A DNA stretch of 64,000 bases from Gammaproteobacteria bacterium (GCA_029865385.1 JAOUGX010000007.1:1-64000); one strand, 5' to 3'. Shown: positions 6,085 through 45,333, counted from the first letter of the stretch. Program-made: numbers and translations. Notes: generated from the sequence alone by a model not told the origin.

Positions 6085-7918
6085 CAACGCCATCCGGCAT
6101 CGGTATCGGATTCGCCCTGCAAACCCGGGCGCGCACCTTTACGAAGTAAGGCTGGAAGTCGAAGAGCCAGACGCGGCGGGACAGTTGTTCCGTTTGCCGG
6201 CGTGGATACCCGGCAGCTACATGATCAGAGACTACGCGAAGAACGTCGTATCGGCGCGCGCGGAAGCGGATGGCCGTGAGGTCACGCTGCAGAAAACCGA
6301 CAAGAGCAGTTGGCTGGCGGATCCTGTCGAAACACCGCTGACGCTGGTTATGGAGATATTCGGCTACGACCCGAGCGTGCGAGGCTCGCACCTCGATACG
6401 ACACATGCCTATTTCAACGGTCCCTGTGTCTTCCCCGAAGTGGTCGGCCAGCACAATTTACCGTGCGATCTGATAATTCAGGCGCCGCCAGAGGGAATCG
6501 GCAGCGACTGGCGGGTAGCAACCTCCCTGCGTTCGGCCGGCGCCGAGAAATACGGTTTCGGCGCTTACGCCGCATCCGACTACGCCGAGCTGATCGATCA
6601 TCCGGTCGAAATCGGCCAGTTGCAGATCGGCGAGTTCGAAGCTCGCGGAATACCGCACACGATTGCGATCCGCGGCACGGCCAGGGTCGACATGGCGCGG
6701 ATATGCCACGACCTCGCGACGCTTTGCGATTGCCAGCTTGGTTTCCTCGGCCCGCCGAAGAATCTCGATCGCTACCTGTTCCTGTTGATGGTGCAGGAAG
6801 AGGGCTATGGCGGACTCGAGCATCGCTGGTCGTCCAGCCTCGTGTGCAGCCGCTCGGACCTGCCGGTGCGTGGCGAGTCGACAGTGAAGGAGGGCTACCG
6901 GAAATTTCTCGGGCTGTGCAGCCACGAATATTTTCATCTGTGGAATGTCAAGCGTATGAAGCCGGAGGCGTTCACGCCGTATGACCTGCAGAAAGAATCG
7001 CATACCGGCCTGCTGTGGGTATTCGAGGGCATTACCTCCTATTACGACAACCTGATGCTGCTGCGTGCCGGGCTCATTACCGCCGAGAGCTACCTCGAGC
7101 TCATCGCCAAAACGATCACGCGGGTCATTCGCGGTCAAGGTCGTTTCCGCCAGAGTGTGGAAGAGTCCAGCTTCGACGCCTGGACCAAGTTTTACAAGCA
7201 GGATGTCAACTCGAGCAACGCCGTTGTCAGCTATTACACAAAAGGATCGCTGATCGCGCTCGCGCTGGACCTTACCCTTCGGCACCAGAGCGATGGACGC
7301 TGTTCGCTGGATGATGTCGTGCGGGAATGCTGGCGGCGCTACGGAGAAACCGGCGAGGGCATGCCGGAGCGCGGTATCGAATCCGTTGCGGAAAGTGTGT
7401 CCGGCATCGAACTCGGCGATTTCTTCGAAAGATACGTTCGCGGCACAGCCGACCTTCCGCTGCGGCTATTGTTCGAGGAACTCGGAATCGTGCTTGGGCT
7501 TCGTCCCGCCGAGGACGCGAAGGACAGCGGCGGCAAGCCGCTGCGCGGAGAACGGCCAACCGGCGGGTGGCTGGGAGCCGGTCTCGTTTACCGAAATAAC
7601 AAGAATTCCATTTCGCTGGTACACGCTGGTAGCCCGGCAGAGCGGGCCGGATTGGCGCCCGGCGACGAGCTCGTCGCACTCGATAATCTGAAACTGACGG
7701 TTGCGAATGCCGATACCTTGCTTCGGGATTATCGCGAAGGGGACTCCGTGCGATTGACGGTGTTTCGCGGCGACGAATTGCTGCGATTCATCGTGACGCT
7801 TGGCTCGCCGCCGGACGATACCTGTTACCTGACGCTGGCGGACAATCCGTCGACGCGTGCAGAATCCAGACGCAAGGCCTGGCTGGAAGGCGTGGTACCG
7901 GGAGACGGTCTGAATTAA
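6041..7918 (+). CDS. M61-family metallopeptidase with C-terminal PDZ domain
   Basis: A 625-residue zinc peptidase of the glycyl aminopeptidase family. The N-terminal beta domain (residues ~20-170, with RLPAWIPGSYMIRDYAKNV) precedes the catalytic domain with HEYFH at residues 295-299 and the third ligand Glu329 in WVFEGITSYYDN. A PDZ domain follows at ~525-600 (GAGLVYRNN, GSPAERAGLAPGDELVALD). No signal peptide is seen, so it should be cytoplasmic. Its start overlaps the upstream hydrolase by 44 bases, tying it to the ctlX operon; a role in peptide turnover alongside arginine-derivative breakdown is inference. Confidence 0.9.
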   Translation: MSQSGSGTGVPATDNNAIRHRYRIRPANPGAHLYEVRLEVEEPDAAGQLFRLPAWIPGSYMIRDYAKNVVSARAEADGREVTLQKTDKSSWLADPVETPLTLVMEIFGYDPSVRGSHLDTTHAYFNGPCVFPEVVGQHNLPCDLIIQAPPEGIGSDWRVATSLRSAGAEKYGFGAYAASDYAELIDHPVEIGQLQIGEFEARGIPHTIAIRGTARVDMARICHDLATLCDCQLGFLGPPKNLDRYLFLLMVQEEGYGGLEHRWSSSLVCSRSDLPVRGESTVKEGYRKFLGLCSHEYFHLWNVKRMKPEAFTPYDLQKESHTGLLWVFEGITSYYDNLMLLRAGLITAESYLELIAKTITRVIRGQGRFRQSVEESSFDAWTKFYKQDVNSSNAVVSYYTKGSLIALALDLTLRHQSDGRCSLDDVVRECWRRYGETGEGMPERGIESVAESVSGIELGDFFERYVRGTADLPLRLLFEELGIVLGLRPAEDAKDSGGKPLRGERPTGGWLGAGLVYRNNKNSISLVHAGSPAERAGLAPGDELVALDNLKLTVANADTLLRDYREGDSVRLTVFRGDELLRFIVTLGSPPDDTCYLTLADNPSTRAESRRKAWLEGVVPGDGLN

Positions 7919-13886: not shown

Positions 13887-13962
13887 GCCGGCATAGCTCA
13901 GTTGGTAGAGCAACTGATTTGTAATCAGTAGGTCCCGGGTTCGACTCCTGGTGCCGGCACCA
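13887..13962 (+). tRNA. tRNA-Thr (anticodon TGT)
   Basis: A complete 76-base cloverleaf: acceptor stem GCCGGCA pairing with TGCCGGC, D-arm with AGCTCAGTTGGTAGAG, anticodon stem ACTGA/TCAGT with loop TTTGTAA and anticodon TGT at 13920-13922, T-arm GGGTTCGACTCC, and an encoded CCA end. Its 3' half (13916-13962) is duplicated several times downstream, which marks it as an integration site. In many gammaproteobacteria this gene heads a Thr-Tyr-Gly-Thr-tuf operon, but no other tRNA follows here. Confidence 0.98.
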
Positions 13963-20764: not shown

Positions 20765-22579
20765 GTGTTAGCTAGCAGGGGACTGTTTCAGTTGGCTGTG
20801 AGGCGAGTATTGGCTACCGAGACACATGCACCTGTCGGGTTCACCGTCGATCCGCGCGAGGGCACAGTTGCCGGCACGGGTGGCACCGTCCGACTGGAGC
20901 CCAAGGTAATGGCGGTGCTCGGGGTTCTCATGGATCACCCCGGTCGCGTAGTCTCGCGGGACGAGCTTCTGGAAACGGTATGGCCTGGCGTGGTCGTAAC
21001 AGAGCACACCCTGAGCCGCTGTATCTATCAGCTCCGCCACGAGCTGGGCAAGATTGGCAACGAGCCGGGGCAGGCCAAATTCAACCCGATTGAAACGCTG
21101 CCCAAGCGGGGCTACCGGCTCTTGGCGAATTTCGAGACCATGTCACCCGGAGATTCCTTAACGTCGAGAGATCTTTCGATCAGAATGCCGGCAATCCCTT
21201 ACGTTGTCGGCCAGTGGGTACGCGGTGATCGGTTCTACGGCCGCAAGTCTCAGATTGCCGAGATTCTCGACGGCAATCGAAACTGTATCTGGCTGCTTGG
21301 GACGCGACGAATCGGCAAGACGTCGCTGCTGAAACAGATCGAACACATCGCGGACACATCCGCAGATCGGCGCTACTTTCCAATCTTCTGGGACTTCCAG
21401 GGTGCGGAGACACCTCAGGAGCTGCACCTCAATTTCGCCGATGCAATCCTTGACGCGGATGAACGGCTGGAGCGCATTGGCATCGGCGTAGAGGAGGTGG
21501 AGGCGGAGGACTTGTTCGTCTCCATGGAGCGGCTCCGGCGCCGATTGCGTGCACATAAGATGGAGCTTCTGCTGCTCTGCGATGAGGTTGAGGAACTGAT
21601 CAAGCTGCATCGACAAGATCCATCGTTGCTGCGCAAACTGCGACACGCAATGCAGAGTCGTGAGGGCATCCGCACAGTTCTGGCATCAACGATCCGCCTG
21701 TGGGCACTTGCTGAGCATAAGGAAGATACGTCGCCGTTTCTGCACGGATTTACACCGCCGCTTTACATCGAGCGACTCACCGATGCAGAAGCGCGATCGC
21801 TGATTGAGCAATCGCATCTCGGTCCGGAAGAGAGGCCCCAACTCGCGGATGGCGTTATTGAAGAAATCCGTGAGCACTGCAATAACCACCCTTACCTGGT
21901 CCAGCTCGTCTGCAAACGCTACCTCGAATCAGGGCGCCTGGAGGAGGCGACTGAACGGGTCGCGACCGATCGGATGGTGAGTTATTTCTTCTCTGTCGAT
22001 TTCGAAATGCTGTCGGACATAGAGCGCCAGATTATTCAGGCGGTGGTTGGATCGCCTGAGGCGACATGCAACTCGATTCAGGAAGAGCTGTCACTCGGAT
22101 CCGATGCGCTTGAGGGCGAACTGCGCCGCCTGGAAAACTTAGGCTTCATCCGCAGAAACGACGAGCAACATGTCGTGCTGGCGAACTACTACTTCCGCCG
22201 CTGGATGCAACAGATGCAGGACGGCAGCATGCACCTGGACGCCGATGCAGTGCCATTGCGAGTAGTAGAAGAGAGCGAGCTGGAACTCGACAGCGATGAC
22301 ACGCAGCCAGCCGTTGGGTTCTTCGCCGAGCTAAGGCGCCGCAATGTGGTCCGTGTCGGTATTGCCTACTTTGTTGTAGCCTGGCTGTTGCTACAGGTCG
22401 GAGAAATAGTCCTGGACTTTCTCGAAGTACCCAACTGGGCTGGCAAGCTGCTACTCGTGTTTCTTGTCCTCGGTTTGCCTATTGCGCTGATTCTTGCGTG
22501 GGCATTCGAATTGACGCCGGAAGGCTTGCAGCGCGAAAAGGATATCGACCGGTCGAGAACAACGACACATCAGGACTAG
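20765..22579 (+). CDS. Winged-helix DNA-binding ATPase with C-terminal membrane module
   Basis: About 604 residues. Residues ~25-115 form an OmpR/CadC-type winged helix (VRLEPKVMAVLGVLMDHPGRVVSR, LSRCIYQLRHELG, IETLPKRGYRLLA). A STAND/AAA-type ATPase follows: FYGRKSQIAEIL, Walker A GTRRIGKTS with Lys185, Walker B LLLLCDEVEEL with Asp273. The C-terminal part (~507-590, FFAELRRRNVVRVGIAYFVVAW, WAFELTPEGLQREKD) is a two-helix membrane module known from many gammaproteobacterial CadC-like and TPR proteins. It is thus a membrane-bound transcription factor with a built-in ATPase. The start is GTG at 20765 or a nearby TTG/GTG. The 3' end overlaps the convergent barrel gene by 4 bases. Confidence 0.85.
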   Translation: MLASRGLFQLAVRRVLATETHAPVGFTVDPREGTVAGTGGTVRLEPKVMAVLGVLMDHPGRVVSRDELLETVWPGVVVTEHTLSRCIYQLRHELGKIGNEPGQAKFNPIETLPKRGYRLLANFETMSPGDSLTSRDLSIRMPAIPYVVGQWVRGDRFYGRKSQIAEILDGNRNCIWLLGTRRIGKTSLLKQIEHIADTSADRRYFPIFWDFQGAETPQELHLNFADAILDADERLERIGIGVEEVEAEDLFVSMERLRRRLRAHKMELLLLCDEVEELIKLHRQDPSLLRKLRHAMQSREGIRTVLASTIRLWALAEHKEDTSPFLHGFTPPLYIERLTDAEARSLIEQSHLGPEERPQLADGVIEEIREHCNNHPYLVQLVCKRYLESGRLEEATERVATDRMVSYFFSVDFEMLSDIERQIIQAVVGSPEATCNSIQEELSLGSDALEGELRRLENLGFIRRNDEQHVVLANYYFRRWMQQMQDGSMHLDADAVPLRVVEESELELDSDDTQPAVGFFAELRRRNVVRVGIAYFVVAWLLLQVGEIVLDFLEVPNWAGKLLLVFLVLGLPIALILAWAFELTPEGLQREKDIDRSRTTTHQD

Positions 22580-23901
22580 AAATCGTAAATAGCCGAAAGC
22601 GAGACGGTGTCCACTCGATCCGCGAAATCCACGCCGACATCGACCTGGAAGTTCTGCATGGCCACGCCGATACCCGCTGAGTAATGCATCTCGTCATCGC
22701 CGCGCGGCAGCAGTGCGCGGGCGAGCAGCGAGTCGCTCGTGGCTCGCATCTGGTGATCGGGGTCCAGCCAGGCTCCGAACCGAATGGCGATGATGGGTGT
22801 CGATTCGAGAAACACATACTCTGCACCCAGGCGCAGCTCGTTCACATTATCGATCGCCCGGTCGTCGAGCATGAGGCTGTCGACAATATTCGAGTATTCG
22901 ACGCGATCCCATTGCAGGGACACCGTCAGGCGCCCGTCGGGGGCCCGATACGCGAAGCCGAGTCCGAATATCGATGGCAACTCGAGCGTGGCCGACTCCT
23001 GACGGAATACTTCGCCAGGCGGTACTCCGAGATCGATTGCCTGGCCGGCTGTCAGTATTACGCCGACGTCGATCTCTGGTGCCTGCCGGTAAACGCCGCC
23101 GACGCTAAAGCTATCCGACAGCCTCCAGAGGAAACCCGCTGTCAATGCCCAATCGGCGTCGTCGAAGCTTATTCGCTCGCCAAATACCGATCTCTCCGGG
23201 AGATAGGAGTTCGGCGCGAAGACGCTGGGGATTGTGTCCTCATCCCAGAGGAATATCTCCACATCCGAGAAGAACGACGCATCGTAGTAGACCACGCCGA
23301 GCCCGAGATGGAACCGGTCGCTGATCTGATACGCAGCGGAGAGCCCGTAGCTGAGGATGTCCAGGTCGGATTGCGATCGCTGGTCCCAGAACCGGTCCTG
23401 GCAGCAGGAGCTTCCGCCGAAGAAGAGTCCCTGGGTTTCGCCGAGGAATTGAAAATTCGCGTACTCGTGCCGGAAGAACGCGAGCGACCAACTCTCCTTC
23501 GGATAGACCAACGACAGGAAAGAGAGCCCGGCGAGGTCATCCTCCGACGTCGCGCTTCGAAGGCCGGCTGTCGTGTCAATCCCGAAGCCGCTGGGAAGGT
23601 TTTCCACTCTTCCGTGTTCGATGAACGGCGACGAATAGCTCCAGCGACGCCCTTCGATCGAAATTTCCGGCTTAATCAGCTGCGTCAATCCGGCCGGATT
23701 TGAAAATGCGGCTGTGGCGTCGTCGGCCAGGGCAACAAAAGCGCCGCCGAGACCCATGCTGCGTGCACCCGGGTCGGAGAAGCTGAACTGAAGGGGGACG
23801 ACCGCCTCCTGGCCGGAGACGCTGGCCGGTGCCAGTACCTCGACCAGAAGAAATAGTAGAACCCCGGCGTGGGCGGTAAATCGATTATCTCGGATCGCCA
23901 C
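22576..23901 (-). CDS. OmpP1/FadL or PorV-like outer-membrane barrel protein, copy 1
   Basis: A 441-residue secreted barrel protein: signal sequence ending VSGQ, then the family hallmark DPGARSMGLGGAFVALADDATAAFSNPAGL, and a C-terminus ending SLSAIYDF with the terminal Phe recognised by the BAM complex. The GTG at 23901 is chosen because GGAG lies about 7 bases before it; the frame is open to 23964, overlapping the upstream gene. FadL/PorV relatives transport hydrophobic compounds or act as shuttles. It is the first and last-transcribed of three tandem copies; copy 2 begins upstream with a 13-base gap. Confidence 0.82.
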   Translation of the reverse strand: MAIRDNRFTAHAGVLLFLLVEVLAPASVSGQEAVVPLQFSFSDPGARSMGLGGAFVALADDATAAFSNPAGLTQLIKPEISIEGRRWSYSSPFIEHGRVENLPSGFGIDTTAGLRSATSEDDLAGLSFLSLVYPKESWSLAFFRHEYANFQFLGETQGLFFGGSSCCQDRFWDQRSQSDLDILSYGLSAAYQISDRFHLGLGVVYYDASFFSDVEIFLWDEDTIPSVFAPNSYLPERSVFGERISFDDADWALTAGFLWRLSDSFSVGGVYRQAPEIDVGVILTAGQAIDLGVPPGEVFRQESATLELPSIFGLGFAYRAPDGRLTVSLQWDRVEYSNIVDSLMLDDRAIDNVNELRLGAEYVFLESTPIIAIRFGAWLDPDHQMRATSDSLLARALLPRGDDEMHYSAGIGVAMQNFQVDVGVDFADRVDTVSLSAIYDF

Positions 23902-23914
23902 AGTCAACTCCGTC

Positions 23915-25243
23915 CTAGAAGTCGTAGATCGCTGACAATGACAACGTATCCGCTCGATCGCCAAAATCCATCGCGAAATCGACCTGGAATTGCTGCATCG
24001 CTACACCAATACCCGCAGCGAAGTGAAATTCGTCGTCGCCACGTGGCATCAATGCGCGGATAAAAGGTTCGTCGATCGTAGCCCGCATCTGATGATCCGG
24101 ATCCAGCCAGGCCCCGAGCCGAACGGCAATGACCGGGGTCGAACCGAGGAAGACATACTCGGCGCCCAGGTGCAATTCATCAGCGTCGTCGATTGTTTGG
24201 TCGTCGAGGGCGAGACTTTGCGGGATGTCGGAATACTCGATGCGATCCCACTGGAAACTCAACGTAAGGCGTCCGTCGGGGTCGCGATACGCGAATCCGA
24301 GCCCGTAAATATCCGGGAATTCGATAGGGCCGCCCGACGCCCGCAGAAACACTTCTCCAGGGGGCACGCCAAAATCGACGGCCTCTCCGGCAGCGACCTC
24401 GAACTCGATGCTGGTTTCAAAACCCTGCCGGTAAACTGCGCCGATACTCCACGCTTCCGACAACCTCCAGAGAATCCCGCCCGTAAGCGTCCAGTCAGTG
24501 TCGTGGACGCTGCTTCTTTGGCTGACCCGCAGTCTTTCAGGAAGGTACGAGTTGCGCCCGAAGAAGCTCTGCAGCGTGTCGTCATCCCATAGGTACTGGG
24601 CCACATTCGACTCGATAGCGGCATCGTGATAGACCACCCCGAGCCCGAGATCAAACCTGTCGCTGATCCGATAGGCAGCGGAGAACCCGTAGCTCAAGAA
24701 ATCCAGATCGCTCGTCGCGCGCTGGTCGAAGAAGCGGTCCTGGCAACAGTCGGTTCCGGCGAAGAAGAGTCCCTGCGTTTCACTGGAGAATTCTAGGTTC
24801 GCGTTCTCGTGACGGAAAATCGCGAGCGACCAATTCCCTAGTGGATACGCCAACGAGAGGAAGGAGAGCCCGGCGAGGTCATCATCCGATGTTGACCTTC
24901 TAAGACCAACCATCGTGTCAATGCCGTTACCGCTCGGGAGGCCTTCTGCCCTGCCTCCCACCGTGTATGGTGTTGAGTAGCTCCAATGGCGCCCCTCGAT
25001 AGAGACCTCGGGTTTCAGGAGTTGCGCGAGTCCGGCAGGGTTGGCGAATGCAGCGGTGGCGTCATCGGCCAGTGCTACGAAGGCCCCGCCGAAGCCCATG
25101 CTGCGTGCACCCGGGTCGGAGAAGCTGAGTTGGAGCGGTATGATAGGCTGCTGGGCTGAGACGACGGCCGGTGCCAGCAACCCGAACAGAAGTAGGATCG
25201 ATACTCCGGTGTAGCTGGATATTCGGTTGACGCTGCTTGTCAT
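23915..25243 (-). CDS. OmpP1/FadL or PorV-like outer-membrane barrel protein, copy 2
   Basis: A 442-residue paralogue of copy 1, very similar along its whole length (same DPGARSMGFGGAFVALADDATAAFANPAGL block, same LDPDHQMRA motif, same SLSAIYDF end). The ATG at 25243 is preferred over the GTG at 25258 because AGGCGG lies six bases before it and within that extension. Signal sequence ends VSAQ. Two Cys residues in an external loop (CCQDRF) are conserved in copies 1 and 2. Function probably overlaps with copy 1. Confidence 0.82.
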   Translation of the reverse strand: MTSSVNRISSYTGVSILLLFGLLAPAVVSAQQPIIPLQLSFSDPGARSMGFGGAFVALADDATAAFANPAGLAQLLKPEVSIEGRHWSYSTPYTVGGRAEGLPSGNGIDTMVGLRRSTSDDDLAGLSFLSLAYPLGNWSLAIFRHENANLEFSSETQGLFFAGTDCCQDRFFDQRATSDLDFLSYGFSAAYRISDRFDLGLGVVYHDAAIESNVAQYLWDDDTLQSFFGRNSYLPERLRVSQRSSVHDTDWTLTGGILWRLSEAWSIGAVYRQGFETSIEFEVAAGEAVDFGVPPGEVFLRASGGPIEFPDIYGLGFAYRDPDGRLTLSFQWDRIEYSDIPQSLALDDQTIDDADELHLGAEYVFLGSTPVIAVRLGAWLDPDHQMRATIDEPFIRALMPRGDDEFHFAAGIGVAMQQFQVDFAMDFGDRADTLSLSAIYDF

Positions 25244-25370
25244 TGGTGCCGCCTGCACGACTGACCATGAGTGAAAAGGCTACGCGCCATAAAAAGAGAC
25301 CACAATAAGGAGTTCCCGATGCGCGCATCGAAGCCTGCAGCAAAGCAAGCATTGTCAGGAGCAGCCCCTG

Positions 25371-26389
25371 GAAGCTGTAGATCGCGGACAGAGATACCGT
25401 GTCGACGAGGTCTGAGAAGTCGGCACCGAGGTCGATCTGGGAGTTGTCGAATGCCAGTCCGATACCTAACGACCAGTGAATAGTATCCGTGCCCGGTGAC
25501 AGCAGCGCATGCTCTATCGGCTCGCTGGCTGCAGTGGCCCCTGGGCGATGGTCGGGATCAAGCCATACGCCGAGCCGAGCAGCAACAACGGGTGTGGATC
25601 GGAGGAACACATATTCGCCGCCCAGGTGAAATTCATCGCCGTCGTTAAGCTCAAGATCGTCGGTGTCAAAATCCTCTGGATTGAGTCGATCAAGGATGGT
25701 CGAGTACTCGACCCGATTCCAATCGAAGGCTATCGTCAGGCGTCCATTCTCTGACCGGAAGACAAATCCCAGGCCATCCTCTCCGGCAGATACGAGGTCG
25801 AGGCGAAGATCTGCAGGATGAAGTCTTCGTCGGGCAGAAATGCGTTCCGAACGATATCCACATTGCCTTGGAAATAGACGAGCGACAGGCCGAGACTCAA
25901 TGCGTCGGTCAATCGATAGGCACCAGAGAGCCCGTAGCTGACGACCTCGAAATCAGTGTGCACCCTATCGTCAGTGAATCGGCAACAGGTGGTGTCCACG
26001 CCCGCGAAGAGTCCCTGCGTCTGGCTAAGAGATTCGAAATTCGCTGGCTGGTGGCGATAAAGGGCGATCGACCATTTTTTGTACGGGTAGACAAGCGACA
26101 GGAAAGAGACGTCCGTAACGTCATCGGAAGAGGTGCCGCCGCTCAAACCGGCCACGACATCGACGCCGATGCCCGTCGGTTCGCCCTCGACCCGACCGCG
26201 AAGCGTAAAGGGTGTGGCGTAGCTCCAGGATCGGCCTTCGACAGAGATCTCGGCCCTGGTGATCTGCATGAGGCCGGCGGGGTTGGCGAAAGCGGCGGTG
26301 GCATCATCGGCCAGTGCAACGAAGGCACCGCCAAATCCCATGCTGCGCGCTCCAGGATTCGAGAAGCTGAACTGCAGGGTGGGCGGCAC
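25371..26389 (-). pseudogene. Third barrel copy, disrupted by internal deletion and frameshift
   Basis: The N-terminal half (from GTG 26389, residues like FSNPGARSMGFGGAFVALADDATAAFANPAGL) is intact to SYLPER near 25790; there the sequence jumps, without the ~100 residues found between these points in copies 1 and 2, to a segment GLGFVFRSENGRLTIAF in another frame that continues as LGGEYVFLRSTPVVAARLGVWLDPDH to VSLSAIYSF at 25371. The terminal stop codon is also lost. Signal-peptide-like sequence (KALFTTLALCLAAGAVPAQ) precedes 26389 but has no start codon. This is a decaying duplicate. Confidence 0.85.
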
Positions 26390-27060: not shown

Positions 27061-27207
27061 CTGCAGGTCTTGACGGTCTCTGAGTCGACGAACCAGGCGA
27101 TTTTCTTCTAAGAATGTACCAGCATACGGCATGGTTACGAGGTCAAATCTCGACAAAATTCTAAAGAAACGGAGCTGAAGACCGCATTGTTCCTCGATTG
27201 CAGAGTG
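27061..27207 (+). other. Conserved left flank of the attachment-site copy
   Basis: From AACCAGG (27091) to the tRNA-like segment (27208) is 117 bases; the same distance and many of the same blocks (TTTTCTTCTAAGAAT, CAAATCTCG-CAAAATTCTAAAG, GACCGCAT, GATTGCAGA) precede the copy at 36304. The TTCTAAGAAT and AAAATTCTAAAG blocks are inverted relative to each other and may be recombinase arm sites. Confidence 0.7.
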
Positions 27208-27254
27208 GATTTGTAATCAGTAGGTCCCGGGTTCGACTCCTGGTGCCGGCACCA
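27208..27254 (+). repeat. Attachment-site copy: 3' half of tRNA-Thr
   Basis: 47 bases identical to 13916-13962 of tRNA-Thr, from within the anticodon stem to the CCA end. The 5' half of the tRNA is absent, so this is not a working tRNA but a direct repeat made by integration at the tRNA gene. Confidence 0.95.
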
Positions 27255-27380
27255 CTTCAGATCTGCCAGTTGCTCCGTGCCGCCGAGCGATTGTCCAGCG
27301 GGCCCCGATCCGCGATTCCGGCGGGGGTAAACCTCGCATAAGTAAAAACCCCGGTAGCATGCCAGTCAAAGTCGGCCAAA

Positions 27381-27522
27381 GGGTGAGATTCAGGTGCCCT
27401 GCCGACGAAGGGCCGGGTCGGCGCGCTAGCATTGCGGCCTCGTTCTGCCGTCGTTCGCCCGGTTTCATCCAGGCCCGACGGATTGCGTCGCTGACATAAG
27501 GCCCCTTATACGTACTATCCGC
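27381..27522 (+). repeat. Direct repeat, copy A (~145 bp)
   Basis: Ends in GACGGATTGCGTCGCTGACA then TAAGGCCCCTTATACGTACT and ATCCGCC, shared almost exactly with copy C at 35168. The 5' third is more diverged. The 3' end contains nested inverted repeats, ATAAGG/CCTTAT inside CGGAT/ATCCG. It stands at the 3' end of the 1048-residue protein gene. Confidence 0.85.
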
Positions 27523-27527
27523 CTTGA

Positions 27528-30500
27528 TCATCTCGGCTCTGCCCCGTTGATCGCTCCCCACAGTTGTTGCGCACGATCATGCCAGCCCATCGCTTCCTGG
27601 AAATCCGCATAGCCGCCGATTGCATCGCCCGCAGCATCGTCGATAGCGCTCTGCGCCTGGTCTGTGATCCATCCTTCCACCTGCTCTGCCAGCAGTTCGT
27701 CGTAGCCGGACGTGAAGGTGCCATCCATCAGGATGATCGCAATCGACGCGCGCCGCAGATGTTCCAGTTTCGCTTTCTCGAGTTCGACCCACACCTGGAA
27801 AGCCGGCGGCGTGGCGATGAGCGCCTCCATTATCTCGGTGTAAGCGTCAATGACCAGTGACAGCAGTTCGAACTTTCGGTTCGTATCTTCCACCGTTGCA
27901 CCACCCGATGCGTCGGGCAGCATCCCCAGCACTGCGCCGCTGGCCGTATCCAGTTCCCAGTAGGCAACCCGCGCCGGGTCTGCCGGTAGCAGCAAGTGGT
28001 GCCGCGACGGATAGCGGCCGCGGTCGGCAACCGCAATGGGCCAGCTCTTGCTGTCATCGTCGCCGGCTATCGAGGTCACCCATTGGCCCAGTTGGTACGA
28101 CGGTCTGAACAGGTATTCCGTGTCACCGGCGATCGACATTGTGCTGGTTGTGAAGTTTTCGGCCTCAAGTATCGACAGCTGCAATGTGTGCCGCAGGTTT
28201 GCGGCGAACTCGTCCTCGCCAGGTGCGATCGTGCGCCAGTCAGAGAACGGCAGTATGTCTACCTTGCGGCGAAAATGGCCGCCTGCGCCGGGCAGGTCGC
28301 TGAACAGCATCATGCGGTAACCCGCCTGGAAACTGGCACGACCGGGACCGTTGGCGCCGGGCAACCGTGTGTTGAGTGCAAGCCAGCGTTTCGGCAGCCG
28401 CTCAACGCCGGCCTGTGTGGCGGCAATGATCGAGTCCTTGTCATGCGTTGCCGCAGCGGCGACCAGCCCCTCGCAGGACAGGTTCGACGAAATAATGTCG
28501 TCGAGCGCCGCTGCCGGGGTCGGTGCAGACGCCTCGACGGACAAATCGAATTTGCCAAGCAGGGCGAGCCGGGTTGCCTGCACATGCTCCTCGGTGAGTG
28601 GCGTGAGCGCCGTGCTGAGCAGCGGAAAACCGGCAAGCCGGCGCATCGTGCGCTGGTTGCCGATTTCCAATGTCAGGAACAAGCCACAGATGGCGCGCGC
28701 GGCCGGTACATCGCTGTCCGGTCGCTCGTAGGCAATCGTGGTTGTTGAATCGCCGGCCGGCACGGACAGGCGAATTTCCGCTTCGGTATTTTCAAAACCC
28801 TCTGCCACGACTTCGAAAACATAGGGCTTCGTCACATTCGCGTCGGCGAGCGTGACGATCCTGTCGGTTGCCGCGTCCAGTGCCTCAACAAAAAACAGGT
28901 GGCCGCCCGAAAGTTGTGCAAGCCTCGCAAAATGCTCGTCACGGGTCAGCGCGGAACGTACGCCGACGATGACCGCGGGGCAGCCGGTACTGATTTGCGC
29001 GGCATAGGCCGGTTGCTCGGAATCGGAACCGTCCGCATCTGTGATGAGCACGACGACGTTGGCGTCCTCGTTCGTGGCCCCGGCCAAAGCCTGGAAGTAG
29101 GTCGAGGTTTGTGGCGCGGTCGGGGCCTTGCGTCGAATCGATTCGGCCACGGCAGCAGGATCATCCGACCATTGCGAGAAATACTGCACCGTGCCGCTCT
29201 GCGGCGTGCCGGTGAAGGCGCCGGCGCGAAACGAGGAGGTTGGACGCTGCCGGGCAACGGCCTGGCAAATGCGTTCGACGATCGGCGCAAGACGGACGCC
29301 ACGGTACCGTTCGTCGAGGCTCGTGGACAGATCGAGCGCAAACGCGATGCGCGGCGCTTCGGGAAGATTGCGGGTCAGCCGCGCCGACATCGGGCGGCCG
29401 CCGTGATGCAACGCAAATACAGACAGCGGCAGTCCGTCGACCGGGCTGCCGTCGGCGCGAAGCAAGGCTGCTTCGATGCGCATGCGCGGATACTCGCTGG
29501 TGTTGATGGTTGCGTCGATGCGCTGCACCTGCGAGGCGAGCGCGCTGTCTGCATTTCCGAGCGGCAAGGGCCGGCCATCAATTTGCACACCATCACCGTC
29601 GGCCGTGATGCGCTCACCTTCGACGCTCAATACGTCACCGCTGAAGCCGAACCTTCCGGCGTCAGCCTCGTCCAGGTCGTCGCCCGAGACCAGAAATGTC
29701 GGCAGCACAGTGCGCAGCTGTTGCAACGGCATCGACAACAGGTCGTCGACTGACTGCGTCGGCAGAAAGCGAAGTTGCACGCGCCGGCCGATGAGGTCGC
29801 CAATCGGCCATTCGCCATCGAGTACGGGATCCGGCACGCCGGGAGCGCTGCGACGTGTAATCGAAACCGTCAGGCGCAGCGTCGGCGTTGGCACCGCATC
29901 CTGCAGTGGAGATTTGCGCGGTACGTTCACACAGTAGTGCTCGCCGAGGGTTGCGCCGGGCACATTCGGATTGGCAAAGACAGACGCACCGTCGTGCTCG
30001 ATGCGCAGCAGCGGCAACCAGGATGAAAGCGCGGACCAGTCGGTGTTTGCAGCGCGCGCCGTTGACGGTACTGCGGCCAGCAGCCGGTTCGACACCGCAT
30101 CGAGCGTGGCTGCATCGAGAGTGGCCGGCCGGAGATGTTGCGCCGCTGCGGTGCCGAGTTGTTCGAGCCAGCGATCGACCGGCGCCAGCGCTGCATCGGG
30201 TGCGAATGCCGGACGTGGCGGGCTGGTGTAAAGCGCGGTGTCGCCGAGCGCCGCAAAATCGATATTGCCATCGACAATTTCGGCGGCAAACCCGGCCTGT
30301 TGTAGCAGTGTCTTCAGCAGTTCGGTTTTTTCGCGTGCAGTGCCGATTCCGGAGCGCAGAACGCCGCGAATGCCGGCATGACCGGCGCGCTGAATTTGCG
30401 CGGCGTGCGTCGCCGAGACCCAGGGCCGCAATGCGATGTTGTCGCGCACAAAAGCGAAGATTGTTTCGATACTGCCGCTTGCGACCGCATCTCGTGCACG

Positions 30501-30674
30501 ATAAGCGAGATGATCCGGGCTTTGTTGCACGGCTTCGCGAATCTTTCGCCACAGTGAGAACGGCGCGCCCGCCGGCAGCGCATCGTCCCGGGAGCAGGCG
30601 TTCAACGCTGGCAACGAAGCCAAAGCTTGCAGAGCAGCAATTCGCTTGATGATCTCCCGGCGACTTATCGTCAT
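27528..30674 (-). CDS. Tat-type lipoprotein with transglutaminase-like and vWA domains
   Basis: A 1048-residue protein. The N-terminus MTISRREIIKR with LPALNAC looks like a twin-arginine signal with a lipobox, so export folded and lipidated. Residues ~60-125 resemble a transglutaminase-like fold (SIETIFAFVRDNIALRPW, GTAREKTELLKTLLQQAGFAAEIV), but Ala113 stands where the catalytic Cys is expected, so it is probably inactive. A von Willebrand A domain at ~440-610 has the MIDAS motif DLSTS (Asp448, Ser450, Ser452) and VVVLITDADGSDS. The C-terminal 350 residues are unrecognised. The frame is open to ATG 30707, but the start at 30674 gives a proper Tat signal. Role unknown; a surface-binding or scaffold protein is possible. 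Confidence 0.75.
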   Translation of the reverse strand: MTISRREIIKRIAALQALASLPALNACSRDDALPAGAPFSLWRKIREAVQQSPDHLAYRARDAVASGSIETIFAFVRDNIALRPWVSATHAAQIQRAGHAGIRGVLRSGIGTAREKTELLKTLLQQAGFAAEIVDGNIDFAALGDTALYTSPPRPAFAPDAALAPVDRWLEQLGTAAAQHLRPATLDAATLDAVSNRLLAAVPSTARAANTDWSALSSWLPLLRIEHDGASVFANPNVPGATLGEHYCVNVPRKSPLQDAVPTPTLRLTVSITRRSAPGVPDPVLDGEWPIGDLIGRRVQLRFLPTQSVDDLLSMPLQQLRTVLPTFLVSGDDLDEADAGRFGFSGDVLSVEGERITADGDGVQIDGRPLPLGNADSALASQVQRIDATINTSEYPRMRIEAALLRADGSPVDGLPLSVFALHHGGRPMSARLTRNLPEAPRIAFALDLSTSLDERYRGVRLAPIVERICQAVARQRPTSSFRAGAFTGTPQSGTVQYFSQWSDDPAAVAESIRRKAPTAPQTSTYFQALAGATNEDANVVVLITDADGSDSEQPAYAAQISTGCPAVIVGVRSALTRDEHFARLAQLSGGHLFFVEALDAATDRIVTLADANVTKPYVFEVVAEGFENTEAEIRLSVPAGDSTTTIAYERPDSDVPAARAICGLFLTLEIGNQRTMRRLAGFPLLSTALTPLTEEHVQATRLALLGKFDLSVEASAPTPAAALDDIISSNLSCEGLVAAAATHDKDSIIAATQAGVERLPKRWLALNTRLPGANGPGRASFQAGYRMMLFSDLPGAGGHFRRKVDILPFSDWRTIAPGEDEFAANLRHTLQLSILEAENFTTSTMSIAGDTEYLFRPSYQLGQWVTSIAGDDDSKSWPIAVADRGRYPSRHHLLLPADPARVAYWELDTASGAVLGMLPDASGGATVEDTNRKFELLSLVIDAYTEIMEALIATPPAFQVWVELEKAKLEHLRRASIAIILMDGTFTSGYDELLAEQVEGWITDQAQSAIDDAAGDAIGGYADFQEAMGWHDRAQQLWGAINGAEPR

Positions 30675-30825
30675 CGGTTTTCGTCGGCGCGCTCGTCCAT
30701 GCCGCAATCATACCGTGGCGGCCTCCGGGTGTTCCGCTTTTGGCGCAAAAATCGTATCCTGTGCGACGAACCGCGATTCTTCGCTGCGTTATCGGCACGG
30801 CTGGATTCGACAACAAGGAGTTGAC

Positions 30826-31326
30826 ATGGCCTCATCCAGAGTTTCGATGCTGCTTGTTCTTGCATTGCTAATGGTCGTTTCCGCGGTATACGCAGGAGCT
30901 CGCATTCCCGGTTCCGCGATTGTTCGCGTCGCTGACAGCGAGTACATCATTCCAATCGAATGCAACGACGCATCGCAGCCGGAGCAGGGCTTCTCAACCG
31001 AGCCCGCACGGATTACCAAGGAGAGAACCGGGCGCACGAGTGGCGTACGCCTGACGGTGCGACCATGGAAGGAGACGGCCTACCTCGTCATTTCGCTGGA
31101 TCGGTATGTTGCCTGGGCAGAGTCGCCGGCCGCGAGCGGCGGGGTCTTGCGCATGACGCTCAACATGAGCCCGGCGAGCCTGTTGGTCGACGGCACGCAA
31201 AAATTGCTCACCTACGATGAGTGGATGGCAGGCAACCGCCCGGCCGGACTGGATGGTGTGATGTTCGAGGCGAACTGTCGCGAGCGCGACCCGAATGCGC
31301 CGGCGTTCAGGAGCGGAGTTCAATGA
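30826..31326 (+). CDS. Secreted protein of unknown function
   Basis: A 166-residue protein with a clear signal peptide (VSMLLVLALLMVVSAVYAGA). The ATG at 30826 has AAGGAG six bases upstream. The mature part contains two Cys residues (IECND and EANCRERD) that might form a disulfide, and a beta-rich stretch (SGVRLTVRPWKETAYLVISLDRY). No family recognised. It is divergent from the vWA protein and followed after one base by a lipoprotein gene. Confidence 0.65.
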   Translation: MASSRVSMLLVLALLMVVSAVYAGARIPGSAIVRVADSEYIIPIECNDASQPEQGFSTEPARITKERTGRTSGVRLTVRPWKETAYLVISLDRYVAWAESPAASGGVLRMTLNMSPASLLVDGTQKLLTYDEWMAGNRPAGLDGVMFEANCRERDPNAPAFRSGVQ

Positions 31327-31327
31327 C

Positions 31328-31750
31328 GTGACAAACACAAAATATCGTTTTGCAATGGTAAGCGCCCCAGCCGCTGTGATGATATTGCTCATTGCTTGTG
31401 GCGGTGACAACACGGATCTTGCCGCCAATGACCGCGGTACTGCAGAGTCACAGCTGCCCGAGGACTTTCCGCGCGAGCTCGTGCCGCCGAGCTACGACAG
31501 GATCGAGTACGTCGATATGCGCGCATTCGGCAGCATCGAGGGCGCCAGCTTTGAAAGTGATGGCGCGGTGCATGTCGCGATCGATCATTACGTCGATTTG
31601 CTCGGCGGCCCGACGATCAATGTAGATTCCGGGGACGGTGACCGAATCAGCCAATGGCACTCGACTCCGTATCCTCCATGGATGCTCGCAGTGATCGGCA
31701 ATGACGGGGAAACGATCGTTACGGTTAGCAAGCCGCCGCAGAAAAAATGA
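31328..31750 (+). CDS. Small lipoprotein of unknown function
   Basis: A 140-residue lipoprotein: hydrophobic signal and lipobox LLIACGG. The start is a GTG one base after the previous stop, with GGAG ten bases before it, so it is probably translated with the upstream secreted protein. The mature part (DFPRELVPPSYDRIEYVDMRAF and later GDGDRISQWHSTPYPPWMLAVIG) resembles no family I know. Confidence 0.65.
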   Translation: MTNTKYRFAMVSAPAAVMILLIACGGDNTDLAANDRGTAESQLPEDFPRELVPPSYDRIEYVDMRAFGSIEGASFESDGAVHVAIDHYVDLLGGPTINVDSGDGDRISQWHSTPYPPWMLAVIGNDGETIVTVSKPPQKK

Positions 31751-31894
31751 GGAATTCTCCACGTATTCAAGTTATTGAACCGGGTTTTGGATTGAGACGA
31801 TCCCAGGCGTTGTCGGTGGTAAAAATCACAGAGCAACGAATCGGTTAGCTCACATCTCCGCTACATCGCCGTTATTTGACTCAGCAGCGGGTTT

Positions 31895-32042
31895 GGTGAC
31901 AGGGGACGATTCGCGCGCCTGAACGCCGAGGGGTCGGGCCGGCTTCGTCGGATGGCGGCCTCTATCTGCCGTCAACGGCCCGGTTTCAGCTCGCTACGAC
32001 GGTCTCGCTCCTGACAAAATGGCCTTTAAACGTACTATCCGC
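31895..32042 (+). repeat. Direct repeat, copy B (~148 bp)
   Basis: Begins GGTGACAGGGGACGATTCGC like copy C and ends CGTACTATCCGC like copies A and C; the middle has diverged (AAAATGGCCTTTAAA in place of ATAAGGCCCCTTAT). Otherwise the gene-free stretch 31751-32131 holds nothing I recognise. Confidence 0.85.
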
Positions 32043-32131
32043 GGTTTGCCTGCAGATAGTCGATGCAACGGAGCGGAGCGAAAACTCCATTTCGTTCGAT
32101 TCGAAATTGCTTCCGATGGATACGAAATAGA

Positions 32132-32713
32132 GTGAGCCAGTTTGAATACATAATGGTGCTGATCTCCATCGTGCTGGGGCTCGGCATCACGCATCTTCTG
32201 GCAGGCGTCGGCAGCCTCGTGTACAGGCTGTCCGGACAAGGGCCGCGAGTCCGACTGTACTGGGGCCACCTGACGTGGGTGGCATTTGTCTTCTGCTACC
32301 AGATCGGCTTCTGGTGGTGGGAGTTCAGTTGGGCGGAAGAGAACACCTGGGGCCTTCTGCTCTACTTCTTCCTTATTCTTTACGCCACTGCGCTCTTTCT
32401 GTTATGCGAAGTCCTGTTTCCGCGCCGGGCCGACGAGGTGACAGACTTCGAGGCCTACTTCATGGCAGTCCGGAAATGGTTTTACGGACTCATTCTCGCC
32501 GTTACGGCGATCGACGTCGCAGAGTCCATCCTCAAGGGGCCGGACTACATGGAGCGCCTCGGATGGATGTACTGGAGCCTGATAATTTCGCTGGTGGTGA
32601 TCTCCGTGACAGGCATGCTCAGGGACGGGCGCCGCCTGCATGGAGGCTTGGCGCTGGTTGCCTTTATCTTTCAATTCGTCCAGCTTCTGACGACCTACCC
32701 GCTATTGAATTAG
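32132..32713 (+). CDS. Six-helix membrane protein, unknown function
   Basis: A 193-residue membrane protein beginning MSQFEYIMVLISIVLGLGITHLL from a GTG at 32132, with about six helices to TTYPLLN at the end. This N-terminus is seen in a family of small uncharacterised membrane proteins in marine bacteria. The next gene starts 38 bases later on the same strand. Confidence 0.65.
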   Translation: MSQFEYIMVLISIVLGLGITHLLAGVGSLVYRLSGQGPRVRLYWGHLTWVAFVFCYQIGFWWWEFSWAEENTWGLLLYFFLILYATALFLLCEVLFPRRADEVTDFEAYFMAVRKWFYGLILAVTAIDVAESILKGPDYMERLGWMYWSLIISLVVISVTGMLRDGRRLHGGLALVAFIFQFVQLLTTYPLLN

Positions 32714-32751
32714 CACTTGCGTATACTGCCCGTCTCTACTGGTTGCTAACG

Positions 32752-34638
32752 ATGAAAGCCCCGAAGACACCCGTCCTCTACGCAACTCTCTTTCTGCTGC
32801 TGACGGCTGTTGCCTGCTCGTCGCCAGAAGACTCGGCGTCGGCTCCTGAAACCGACACTCCCCCACCGCGGCTGCAGGCACTCCACGTCGAGATGCGAGA
32901 CGGCGTTCGAATCGCGATCGACGTCTGGACCCCCGAAGGGCTACAGCCGGGCGCCACCGTTCCCGCGCTGATGCGCATGACCCGCTACTGGCGGGCCGAA
33001 GACGTCGTGGCCGCCGACGGCGGCGACGTCACCGCCGACTCCAACTACGAGCAGGCCGACCGCATCAACGGCGCCGGCTACGCCTATGTCGTCGTCGACG
33101 CACGTGGCACCGGCGCATCGTTCGGTACGCGGGACTATGAAATTACCGAGGACGAGGTGCGCGACTACGGCGAGATCGTCGACTGGATCGTCGCCCAGCC
33201 TTGGTCCAATGGCCGGGTGGGCTCCGTCGGGGTCTCCTACGAGGGCACCACTGCCGAGATGCTCGCGGTGAACCGCAACCCGGCCGTGCGCGCCGTCGCC
33301 CCGCTCTACCCGGACTTCAACCCCTTCGATCACCTGGTCTATCCGGGCGGCGTGTTCCTCGAGTTCTTCACCGATGAATGGGGACAACTCGTCTTCATGA
33401 TGGACAACGACGACATCTGCGGCTTGACCGGCAGTACCGCGGAGGCGGCCTGCGCAGAGATGAAACAACAGAGCCGCGGGGTCAAGCCGGTGGACGCCGA
33501 CACCGATCGATCGCTGCTTGCCGCCGCCGTCGAGGACCATGCCGCCAACTACAAGGTCGCCGAGGCCTACCGCTCGCTCGAGTTCAGGGACGACCCCCTC
33601 GGTACCGGCCCCCGTAACGTCGACCGCCTGTCTACTCCTTCCTGGAAAAAGCAGGAGATCGAAGGTTCGCGCGCCGCCATCTTCAGCCGCGTGGGCTGGC
33701 TCGACGCCGCTACGGCCGCGGGTGCTCTCAGCCGATTCAATACCTTCTCCAACCCGCAGCGCGTCGTGATCGGGGCACTCAGCCACGGCGGCAACTTCGA
33801 CACCGACCCGTTCCGGCCCGCCGACGCTCCTCCCGACCCATCCGCAGACGAGCAGTTTGCCAGCCTGATCGCGTTTTTCGATCCGCTTCTGAAGGGCGAA
33901 GTCGAGCCGGCCCCGGTAAGCTCCGAGATCCGCTACGTGACACTCGGATCCGGCGAGTGGCGCAGCACGCCGGTCTGGCCGCCAGAGGGCTTCGACGACA
34001 GGACCTTCTACCTGGGCGCCAACGGACACCTGGATCCCGAGCCGCCCGGCGCTGCCGGATCGGACTCCTACAGCGTCGACTACACAGCCACCACCGGCAC
34101 CGCCAACCGCTGGCACACCAACATCGACGGTAGCGACGTGGTCTATCCCGACCGGCGCGAGGAGGACCGCAAGCTGCTCACCTACACGTCGGCGCCGCTG
34201 CAGCGAGACACGGTGGTCACCGGCCAACCGATGATCACGCTGTACGTGCGCTCGGCGACCGACGACGCCGCGTTCTTCGCCTATCTCGAGACGGTGGCAG
34301 CCGACGGCCGCGTTACCTACGTGACCGAAGGGCAGCTGCGCGCCGTCTCCCGCAAGCCGGCCTCCGTCGAGGCCCCCTACTGGCATGCCGGCCCGTACCG
34401 GACCTTCCGGCGCGCGGACGCCCGGCCGATGCCGATCGGTGAGATCGAAGAGATCACGTTCGAGCTTTGGCCCACCTCGGTTCAGGTGCCCGCCGGGCAT
34501 CGCATCCGGGTCGCCCTTGCCGGCGCGGACGCCGGCAACTTCGCCCGTTATCCAAAGAGCGGAGAACCCGCGCAGTGGACGATCGAGCGTAGCGCGGAGT
34601 ACTCCTCGAAGATCGTGTTGCCGATGCGTGAGGAATGA
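32752..34638 (+). CDS. CocE/NonD-family hydrolase, lipoprotein (S15-like)
   Basis: A 628-residue serine hydrolase of the cocaine-esterase/X-Pro dipeptidyl-peptidase group. A signal with lipobox TAVACSS is followed by the alpha/beta hydrolase core: MRDGVRIAIDVWTPEG, VVVDARGTGASFGT, the nucleophile elbow GVSYEGTT near residues 161-168, and a His region at SHGGNFD; a C-terminal jelly-roll domain begins near residue 415 (FYLGANGHLDPEPPG) and ends in HRIRVALAGAD. Acylates or esters, including glutaryl-type beta-lactams, are typical substrates; the natural one here is unknown. G+C is higher than in neighbours, hinting at separate origin. Confidence 0.88.
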   Translation: MKAPKTPVLYATLFLLLTAVACSSPEDSASAPETDTPPPRLQALHVEMRDGVRIAIDVWTPEGLQPGATVPALMRMTRYWRAEDVVAADGGDVTADSNYEQADRINGAGYAYVVVDARGTGASFGTRDYEITEDEVRDYGEIVDWIVAQPWSNGRVGSVGVSYEGTTAEMLAVNRNPAVRAVAPLYPDFNPFDHLVYPGGVFLEFFTDEWGQLVFMMDNDDICGLTGSTAEAACAEMKQQSRGVKPVDADTDRSLLAAAVEDHAANYKVAEAYRSLEFRDDPLGTGPRNVDRLSTPSWKKQEIEGSRAAIFSRVGWLDAATAAGALSRFNTFSNPQRVVIGALSHGGNFDTDPFRPADAPPDPSADEQFASLIAFFDPLLKGEVEPAPVSSEIRYVTLGSGEWRSTPVWPPEGFDDRTFYLGANGHLDPEPPGAAGSDSYSVDYTATTGTANRWHTNIDGSDVVYPDRREEDRKLLTYTSAPLQRDTVVTGQPMITLYVRSATDDAAFFAYLETVAADGRVTYVTEGQLRAVSRKPASVEAPYWHAGPYRTFRRADARPMPIGEIEEITFELWPTSVQVPAGHRIRVALAGADAGNFARYPKSGEPAQWTIERSAEYSSKIVLPMREE

Positions 34639-34704
34639 GCCGCTAATGCCGCCTGCCTTTGCCGGCGCGCCCCGGATTTATCTGTATATCGTGTGGAGAA
34701 CTGA

Positions 34705-35082
34705 TTGCTGTCGGATTCGAACAAGAACTGGGTTGAACTAATCGGCGTTCTCGGCGTCGTCGCGTCGTTGGTCTTTGTCGAGCTGGAGGTCAGGCAGAAT
34801 ACGGCAGCCGTCAGGGGCGCAACCTATCAGGCGATAGCAGATGCATCGCTTCAACAGGTGATATGGTTCGCCGACAATGAAAAGCTTCGCCCGCTCTGGA
34901 TTCGGATACGGGATGACGGGGCTTCGCCCTATGATTTTACCGCGGAAGAAAATCTTGTAATCCGCGCCAATTACGTGATGACGATTCGGCGCATAGAAAA
35001 TATCTATGTGCAGGTCCGTGAGGGACCCGTCGATCCGGCGTATCCGAGCCGAGCGCCGCCTAAGGGCGATTGCCTGGTCTGA
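34705..35082 (+). CDS. Small membrane-anchored protein, probably C-terminally truncated
   Basis: A 125-residue protein from a TTG start with one N-terminal membrane helix (LIGVLGVVASLVFVELEV) followed by RQNTAAVRGATYQ, a pattern of a widespread uncharacterised family usually 150-200 residues long. The ending after VREGPVDPA does not look like the family and the coding character appears to shift frame near 35035, so the gene may be broken just before repeat copy C. Confidence 0.5.
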   Translation: MLSDSNKNWVELIGVLGVVASLVFVELEVRQNTAAVRGATYQAIADASLQQVIWFADNEKLRPLWIRIRDDGASPYDFTAEENLVIRANYVMTIRRIENIYVQVREGPVDPAYPSRAPPKGDCLV

Positions 35083-35167
35083 GCGCTCCGTCCTGTTCAT
35101 CACCACCCGGGCCACCGTGCCGGGACGGGCGGGTTTTGGCTTGCGCCGTGATGCGCCGGCATTTCCG

Positions 35168-35317
35168 GGTGACAGGGGACGATTCGCGCGCCTGAACGAC
35201 GAGGGATCGGGCCGGCTCCGCCAGATGGTGGCCTCGATCTGCGCTCATCGGCCCGGTTTCATCCCGGCCCGACGGATTGCGTCGCTGACATAAGGCCCCT
35301 TATACGTACTATCCGCC
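35168..35317 (+). repeat. Direct repeat, copy C (~150 bp)
   Basis: The most complete copy, running from GGTGACAGGGGACGATTCGC to CGTACTATCCGCC. The last ~50 bases are nearly identical to copy A. It occupies most of the gene-free stretch between the truncated membrane protein and the ParD-like gene. Confidence 0.87.
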
Positions 35318-35429
35318 CGCTATTTGCAATGGTCGTCCCCGATGTGCGGAGGATTGAGTATGGCAGCAAGTGAGTAGTAGATAATACTACTCAGTAGGCG
35401 CATTTCGCCTGCTCTCTGGAAGGTGACAC

Positions 35430-35696
35430 ATGCCAATGGTCAAGAAAAGTATCTCGGTAACCGGCCAGCAAGATAGCTGGATCAAGGCACAGATTAAGAC
35501 GGGGCATTACGGCAACGAAAGCGAAGTCGTTCGCGAGCTGATTCGTGAGCGGCAACTTAGGGACCAGGAAACCCCCGCCTAAATCGAGGCGATATGTGCC
35601 GCGCTAATTGAAGGTGAGCAGAGCGGCTTTAGTGATCGTAGCGTCGACGAAATATGGGAAGAAGCCCGACAACGTCACAGAGCGAAGGAAGCGTAA
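35430..35696 (+). pseudogene. parD: ParD-type antitoxin gene with an in-frame stop
   Basis: The ATG at 35430 opens MPMVKKSISVTGQQDSW and then TGHYGNESEVVRELIRER, the ribbon-helix-helix DNA-binding half of ParD antitoxins. TAA at 35580-35582 ends it after 50 residues. Reading straight on in the same frame gives IEAICAALIEGEQSGFSDRS and a terminal coiled tail to TAA at 35694, exactly the toxin-binding half of ParD. A single nonsense change therefore splits an 88-residue antitoxin. AAGGTG lies just upstream of the start. Confidence 0.85.
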
Positions 35697-35976
35697 GTAT
35701 CGGCTGGCAAAACGCGCCAAAGACGATCTGATCGCGATCACACAATACGGTGATGAGCATTTCGGGGTCGCGCAGTCCAACAGGTACCGTGACAAGCTCA
35801 AACAACGATTTTCAGTATCAGCAAAACAGCCGCAGCTATATCCCGCCGTTGAGCATATTCGACCAGGCTATCATCGGAGCGTGTGCGGCGCGCATTCGAT
35901 TTACTACCGCGTCGAGGCGGACGGCGTGGAAGTCATCCGCATGTTGAAGCATCAAGACCCGAGCAACGCGTTTTAA
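35608..35976 (+). CDS. parE: ParE-type toxin, start codon unclear
   Basis: The RelE/ParE fold runs from KYRLAKRAKDDLIAITQYGD (about 35695) to the end: QPQLYPAVEHIRPGYHRSV and then HSIYYRVEADGVEVIRMLKHQD are the usual late ParE motifs (target in ParE relatives is DNA gyrase). No ATG lies in frame at the expected start next to the parD stop; only TTG 35608, GTG 35614 and GTG 35632 precede it, all inside parD. With the antitoxin truncated, the toxin is probably no longer properly made. Confidence 0.75.
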   Translation: MKVSRAALVIVASTKYGKKPDNVTERRKRKYRLAKRAKDDLIAITQYGDEHFGVAQSNRYRDKLKQRFSVSAKQPQLYPAVEHIRPGYHRSVCGAHSIYYRVEADGVEVIRMLKHQDPSNAF

Positions 35977-36303
35977 GCAGCCCGCCGCTCATCGCTGCTG
36001 CGTTTGGAAAAGGCATTTCGAGTACATTCTCTGCACTTCACGAGAAAGCCACTGGCGGCAAATCACAATTTCCGACATTTTTCCGACATCAGTGGTGCGT
36101 TGTTGTGCATCGTGACGCGAAATCGCAACGGACGCCGTCTTACTTAGCCCTATAAATCAACTACTTACATAAGCCATCACGGCTTCGAACCAGGTGTTTT
36201 TCTTCTAAGAATTTGCCCGTGTACCGAATATATAGGTGCCCAAATCTCGGCAAAATTCTAAAGGAACCTCGCTGGAGACCGCATCATTCCTTGATTGCAG
36301 AAT
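35977..36303 (+). other. Gene-free stretch with conserved attachment-site flank
   Basis: No gene seen. The last 117 bases, from AACCAGG at 36188, match the flank before the tRNA-like copy at 27208 in spacing and in several blocks (TTTTCTTCTAAGAAT, CAAAATTCTAAAG, GACCGCAT). Confidence 0.7.
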
Positions 36304-36351
36304 TGATTTGTAATCAGTAGGTCCCGGGTTCGACTCCTGGTGCCGGCACCA
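36304..36351 (+). repeat. Attachment-site copy: 3' half of tRNA-Thr
   Basis: 48 bases identical to tRNA-Thr 13915-13962, ending in CCA. The 5' half is absent. Confidence 0.95.
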
Positions 36352-38660: not shown

Positions 38661-38707
38661 GATTTGTAATTAGTAGGTCCCGGGTTCGACGCCTGGACCC
38701 GGCACCA
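38661..38707 (+). repeat. Diverged attachment-site copy of tRNA-Thr 3' half
   Basis: 47 bases matching tRNA-Thr 13916-13962 with four mismatches (AATTAG, GACGCC and GGACCC in place of the native bases). Confidence 0.9.
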
Positions 38708-45287: not shown

Positions 45288-45333
45288 AGTTTGTATCGGC
45301 AGGTCTCGGGTTGGACTCCGGATGCCGGCACCA
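45288..45333 (+). repeat. Degenerate attachment-site copy at the far end of the island
   Basis: About 46 bases align to the tRNA-Thr 3' half with several changes and one gap (TTTGTATCGGCAGGTCTCGG, then TTGGACTCC, ending GCCGGCACCA). The maltodextrin locus begins 28 bases later. Confidence 0.6.

Follow-up and report, generated by a model that had tools for sequence, protein, structure and literature searches.

ISCR2 is known for carrying antibiotic-resistance genes, and it is in clinical resistance regions that ISCR elements have chiefly been described. For these elements, capture in a head-to-tail manner or the integration of circles by homologous recombination has been proposed. ISCR2 consists of a 1491-bp gene with about 120 bp before it and approximately 240 bp after it (PMC2725981). 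In an experiment with IS801, 26% of the insertions were right-end fragments of 229-679 nt and some insertions brought up to 1.4 kb of adjacent DNA with them; the authors held that most natural fragments come from rearrangement and not from one-ended transposition (PMC3189936). Mobilisation on the scale of a whole plasmid has also been seen (PMC6354349). In the ISCR28 sandwich, two successive oriIS were found around a resistance gene (PMC12772301). According to a 2018 study, transposition of ISCR elements had not been shown experimentally (PMC6218425).

The window analysed here is a stretch of 64,000 nucleotides from a Gammaproteobacteria bacterium (GCA_029865385.1, JAOUGX010000007.1:1-64000), which contains three repeats, A, B and C. 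Judged by their sequences, the repeats are very probably what remains of copies of an ISCR2-like rolling-circle transposon of the IS91 family that have lost their 5' part and end in its 3' (oriIS) terminus. Three observations point to this: a relative has an intact transposon that includes the repeat tail, the copies stop at one 3' terminus and begin at different points, and copy C retains transposase codons. The repeats add a new natural example, in an island of a marine bacterium, to a type of mobile DNA that is already known, and are not a new cassette system.

Three repeats in one unit of a tRNA-Thr island

An earlier note on this DNA had described three direct repeats of about 145 bp, lying in the same direction at intervals of 4.5 and 3.3 kb. 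Direction and intervals were borne out, as three same-strand copies were found in the window, starting at approximately 27374, 31895 and 35168 with a spacing of 4521 and 3273 bp. The pairwise global identity was 67.5%, 79.6% and 82.0% for A-B, A-C and B-C, respectively, and the alignment scores (97-186) were far above chance compared to shuffled means near -25 and a shuffled maximum of 9. The common length did not hold, however: measured against the intact element the three copies are unequal, C being about 290 bp long, and their only true common boundary is the 3' end. The transposase remnant in the window is limited to the last 17-18 codons and is present in copy C only.

Downstream of the tRNA-Thr gene, its 3' end recurs four times, more or less exactly, in a tandem array of tRNA-targeted island units. 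Since the stretch 27255-36351 lies between two of these 3'-end copies and has a 166-bp arm at both, the segment is one unit (9 kb) of the tandem island, and A, B and C are all inside it. The features are as follows, in coordinates of the window.

13887-13962: complete tRNA-Thr gene
27089-27254, + strand: left boundary of the island unit, arm with a copy of the tRNA-Thr 3' end (27205-27254; exact tRNA 3' end); 84% repeat of 36186-36351
27378-27522, + strand: copy A, probable 5'-truncated ISCR2-like relic, ori (3') end at 27522; BLAST match to positions 1904-2058 of the intact element (L123:3301-5358), 73%
27491-27522, + strand: ori terminus of A, equivalent of the C terminus
27528-30707, - strand: ORF for a protein of ~1059 aa between A and B, vWA-type in the earlier note, with 5 bp between its stop codon and the ori end of A
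30826-31326 and 31295-31750, + strand: two small predicted secreted/lipoprotein ORFs between A and B (ORF scan; no Pfam match)
31895-32042, + strand: copy B, probable 5'-truncated ISCR2-like relic, ori end at 32042; element positions 1900-2058, 80.5%
32011-32042, + strand: ori terminus of B, equivalent of the C terminus
32063-32713, + strand: ORF for a membrane protein directly past the ori end of B, from a family frequent in Woeseiaceae
32752-34638, + strand: CocE/NonD-type hydrolase (Peptidase_S15 and PepX_C; Pfam 6.8e-40; TIGR00976 347 bits, cut-off 66)
34705-35025, + strand: remaining 107 aa of a truncated host gene, joined in frame to the C-terminal transposase codons of C
35026-35316, + strand: copy C, probable longer relic of about 290 bp, ori end at 35316; element positions 1758-2058, 84% over 302 bp
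35026-35082, + strand: reading frame for the transposase C-terminus in copy C, encoding PVDPAYPSRAPPKGDCLV and a stop, then a ~235-bp tail to 35316
35285-35316, + strand: oriIS-like terminus of C (CTGACATAAGGCCCCTTATACGTACTATCCGC), sharp end common to 39 copies
35285-35312, pointing to ParDE: promoter-like CTGACA-N16-TACTAT in the C terminus (promoter scan, consensus match only)
35430-35976, + strand: ParDE toxin-antitoxin pair directly past the ori end of C (ParD 35430-35582, ParE 35608-35976; PF03693, PF05016)
36186-36351, + strand: right boundary of the island unit, arm with a copy of the tRNA-Thr 3' end (36301-36351); 166-bp arm repeat
38661-38707 and 45290-45333: further copies of the tRNA-Thr 3' end

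The ~1059-aa protein matched nothing in Pfam or NCBIfam, and its distant homologues (28%) occur in one relative only. Among the island-unit proteins scanned, no integrase was recognised. In relatives, homologues of the truncated 107-aa protein are mostly about 170 aa long. The left and right flanks at C do not rejoin into one gene, so that a simple insertion would need a later deletion. ParD (35430-35582) stops at about 50 aa, and the relative G013 reads through that codon; the antitoxin may be shortened. In three relatives (L231, L234 and L072) an ori end is followed by ~260 bp and then by a tRNA 3' end, with a common right flank and otherwise different surroundings. A stretch of ~98 bp beside the att copy (36069-36167) recurs in more than 12 Woeseiaceae genomes and is possibly an island end. 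Upstream of the unit, at 22576-26389, there are three tandem paralogues resembling outer-membrane transport proteins, with a DNA identity of up to 72%.

The intact element, its ori end and its distribution

Several copies extended 250-750 bp upstream, into a reading frame matching Pfam Y2_Tnp, and a search with this transposase frame led to an open frame of 494 codons in G258:C5 (WVYQ01000031.1), a Woeseiaceae MAG. The transposase of this intact element has 487 aa, with matches above the cut-off to PF04986 (Y2_Tnp, 9.6e-35) and PF14319 (Zn_Tnp_IS91, 5.8e-16), an HxH motif at residue 186 and Tyr324 at the expected place; one base of its gene is unresolved (X in the translation). The repeat tail is located 3' of the gene and ends 244 bp past the stop codon. 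Upstream of the gene, in the region of the putative 5' (ter) end, approximately 100-130 bp were alignable among several copies. Within the family searched, the 5' half of the element was complete only in G258 and was found as fragments elsewhere. The window's own genome has two contig ends with an identical 127 bp of the 5' region, which suggests that at least two near-identical longer copies in this genome were lost at assembly breaks.

The nearest known transposase in a tblastn search against plasmids was that of ISCR2/ISVsa3 (63% over the C-terminal 165 aa). The NCBIfam model for ISCR clade Ia matched nearly the whole protein at 550 bits (549.8), which is below the cut-off of 925, and the element is therefore related to this clade and not a member of it. 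The element shares with ISCR2/ISVsa3 a gene of ~1.5 kb and a downstream ori region of ~240 bp, and the ISCR2 end on pKAZ1, TTTATTCTTCCTATACG, aligns with CTTATACGCACTATCCG here (CTATACG compared to CTATCCG), the alignable part being the last ~23 bp of the tail. In contrast to ISCR2/ISVsa3, the element here is found in Woeseiaceae, is mostly 5'-truncated and has a tail for which a search of the plasmid and phage collections gave no match.

A sharp 3' terminus ending in CGNACTATCCGC was common to 39 distinct copies with different right flanks, and a cut by the transposase would be expected at ACTATCCGC. When the copies were aligned together with their flanks, they were seen to share one sharp 3' end and to begin at different points, the 5' starts being spread over ~850 bp (element position about 1170 to 2020). 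The starts crowded towards the 3' end, several of them near 1880-1904, with no preferred break point convincingly beyond chance. Neither a clear target motif nor an IS91-type tetranucleotide was found 3' of the 39 ori ends, where the right flanks vary freely, a result that would need re-reading if the terminal CCGC were itself the target. The locus resembles IS801 and IS91 in its rolling-circle IS91-family elements, in right-end fragments with a fixed ori end and, possibly, in the carriage of adjacent DNA (PMC3189936, PMC6354349), whereas theirs adjoin GAAC/CAAG-type tetranucleotides and no such flank is present here. At the ori ends there is a recurrent promoter-like pair directed outward, CTGACA-N16/17-YACTAT, which is a consensus match only and recalls the POUT promoters of ISCR1 (PMC6218425).

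The nested inverted repeats reported at the 3' end, ATAAGG/CCTTAT within CGGAT/ATCCG, were confirmed in A and C and were missing in B and most other copies. The 3' ends of the copies folded inconsistently, and in the single-strand folding suggested as a check copy C did not exceed shuffled sequences (z 0.33). The ori end has a hairpin in A and C and not in general, and the idea of a conserved one was rejected. The segment contained no inverted repeat of at least 30 bp; a MITE (short inverted-repeat element) was also rejected, since no terminal inverted repeats were found and the copies run into the transposase gene. A search of the literature for the repeat's 5' sequence returned no relevant paper.

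The tail has a wide distribution in Woeseiaceae. In the window's genome (3.92 Mb, 198 contigs) there are about 10 copies, on contigs C184 (the window), C82, C92, C29 and C146. Among 396 genomes from this order, 28 gave a match, the majority of the 28 belonging to the same family, and an exact-pattern scan of 84,980 species genomes gave 11 contigs, all of them from MAGs of Gammaproteobacteria, Proteobacteria, Chromatiales or Woeseiaceae. The earlier note had taken the repeats for mobile ends bordering unrelated genes and had asked for a search of the genome and databases; copies beside unrelated genes were indeed found, with different right flanks across the genome and about 20 relatives. A multi-copy ISCR2-like family in marine Woeseiaceae is an environmental counterpart of the clinical ISCR arrays. 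The family includes an intact copy and dozens of naturally truncated ones. It illustrates the sort of environmental reservoir that may be the source of such elements, and its copies can serve as natural material for studying the relation among ori ends, truncation and gene capture.

Orientation of the copies and origin of the cargo blocks

On multi-copy contigs, all copies were found in the same orientation (15 of 15 neighbouring pairs, counted by hand); without the pairs that are possibly one split copy, this was the case for 13 of 13 secure pairs (two-sided chance 2.4e-4). The copies were also clustered on contigs. Orientation and clustering fit ISCR-style head-to-tail capture or circle integration by homologous recombination. 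The order of remnant ori end, cargo and ori end in one direction is that of the ISCR28 sandwich, unlike which the cargo here does not consist of resistance genes and the ends in the window are all without a transposase body.

A and C were identical at 59 of the last 60 bp at the 3' end and at about two thirds of the positions elsewhere, and B and C were identical at 30 of 30 bp at the opposite end. This patchy identity suggests, at the level of sequence, gene conversion or homogenisation by recombination. The junction between the ori end and ParDE is common to copy C and G013, with 95% identity beyond the ori end; the G013 relic and copy C are only about 80% alike, and their left flanks are unrelated. 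ParDE homologues in five other genomes begin 44-46 bp inside the segment shared with G013. The shared junction could be due to recombination in the ori region, to repeated insertion at one place or to fast drift of the relic. Internally deleted copies are present in G006 and G001.

The data favour head-to-tail ori ends assembled by transposition or circle integration, together with recombination, inside the tRNA-Thr island. By analogy with IS801, we infer that rolling-circle transposition begins at the ori end and can stop early. The transposase would nick at the ori end and a single strand would be displaced towards the 5' side; transposition could then stop early, giving short remnants, or run past the left end, carrying neighbouring DNA along, and later recombination between copies would reshuffle and trim the blocks. 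The cargo blocks would then be segments captured upstream of the ori end, or else pieces of the island separated by insertions and deletions. Capture of the cargo genes is put forward tentatively, at somewhat below an even chance. In 107 family genomes the homologues of the cargo proteins (the 1059-aa, membrane and truncated 107-aa proteins) are distant, mostly 28-44%, too distant for a donor or empty site to be read, and none was found there. It is also conceivable, though quite unlikely, that the ori-only remnants of Woeseiaceae constitute a gene-stacking system, in which transposase supplied in trans would add blocks head to tail in tRNA islands and build cassette-like arrays free of integrase.

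The main rival is the rearrangement of natural fragments, as the IS801 authors held for theirs (PMC3189936), and by that analogy it may hold here. ISCR insertions would have lost their 5' parts by deletion and RecA recombination would have shuffled the island, with no cargo ever carried. The internally deleted copies, the patchy identity of A-C and B-C, and the junction shared with a different relic and an unrelated left flank in G013 are all in accord with such passive decay. Random loss, however, should leave 5' ends approximately as often as 3' ends, and the 5' half is nearly absent; nor does decay alone predict the consistent head-to-tail orientation. Passive decay is a serious possibility that falls short of being probable. 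Other HUH elements are known to favour one replication strand, and insertion at replication forks with such a preference, instead of capture, would also make all copies of a contig point the same way; the GC skew on the copy strand was positive in 7 of 11 contigs, showing no clear link in what is a weak test, and this explanation is considered unlikely.

The arrangement also has the layout of an integron cassette array, with unrelated genes between the copies and a sharp 3' boundary. The earlier note had drawn this likeness, remarking on the lack of integron core sites, and had proposed a cassette-type recombination target. The layout and the lack of core sites stand, as no GTTRRRY or RYYYAAC sites were found in A, B or C, but the proposed target was not sustained. 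The repeat has no attC fold or other special fold, and its 5' boundaries are variable; it continues into a transposase gene and is accounted for by the ori end of an IS91/ISCR-type transposon, of which an intact copy was found. An integron-like or other site-specific array with the repeat as recombination site is accordingly highly improbable, rolling-circle transposition and recombination being the likelier cause. Simple segmental duplication of one locus would agree with the common direction and the spacing of a few kb, and would have been indicated by a repeat found only here or always beside the same gene; it is refuted by the further copies elsewhere in the genome and in some 20 relatives, whose neighbouring sequences differ, and retains practically no likelihood.

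Other genes were observed next to ori ends in relatives. In L042 (G003:C258), a toxin-antitoxin-like ORF pair (6283-6814) is located just downstream of the ori end, comparable to ParDE after C. In L038 (G013:C26), a gene with a phage-integrase N-terminal domain (PF13495; 1-386) adjoins the ori end and is directed away from it.
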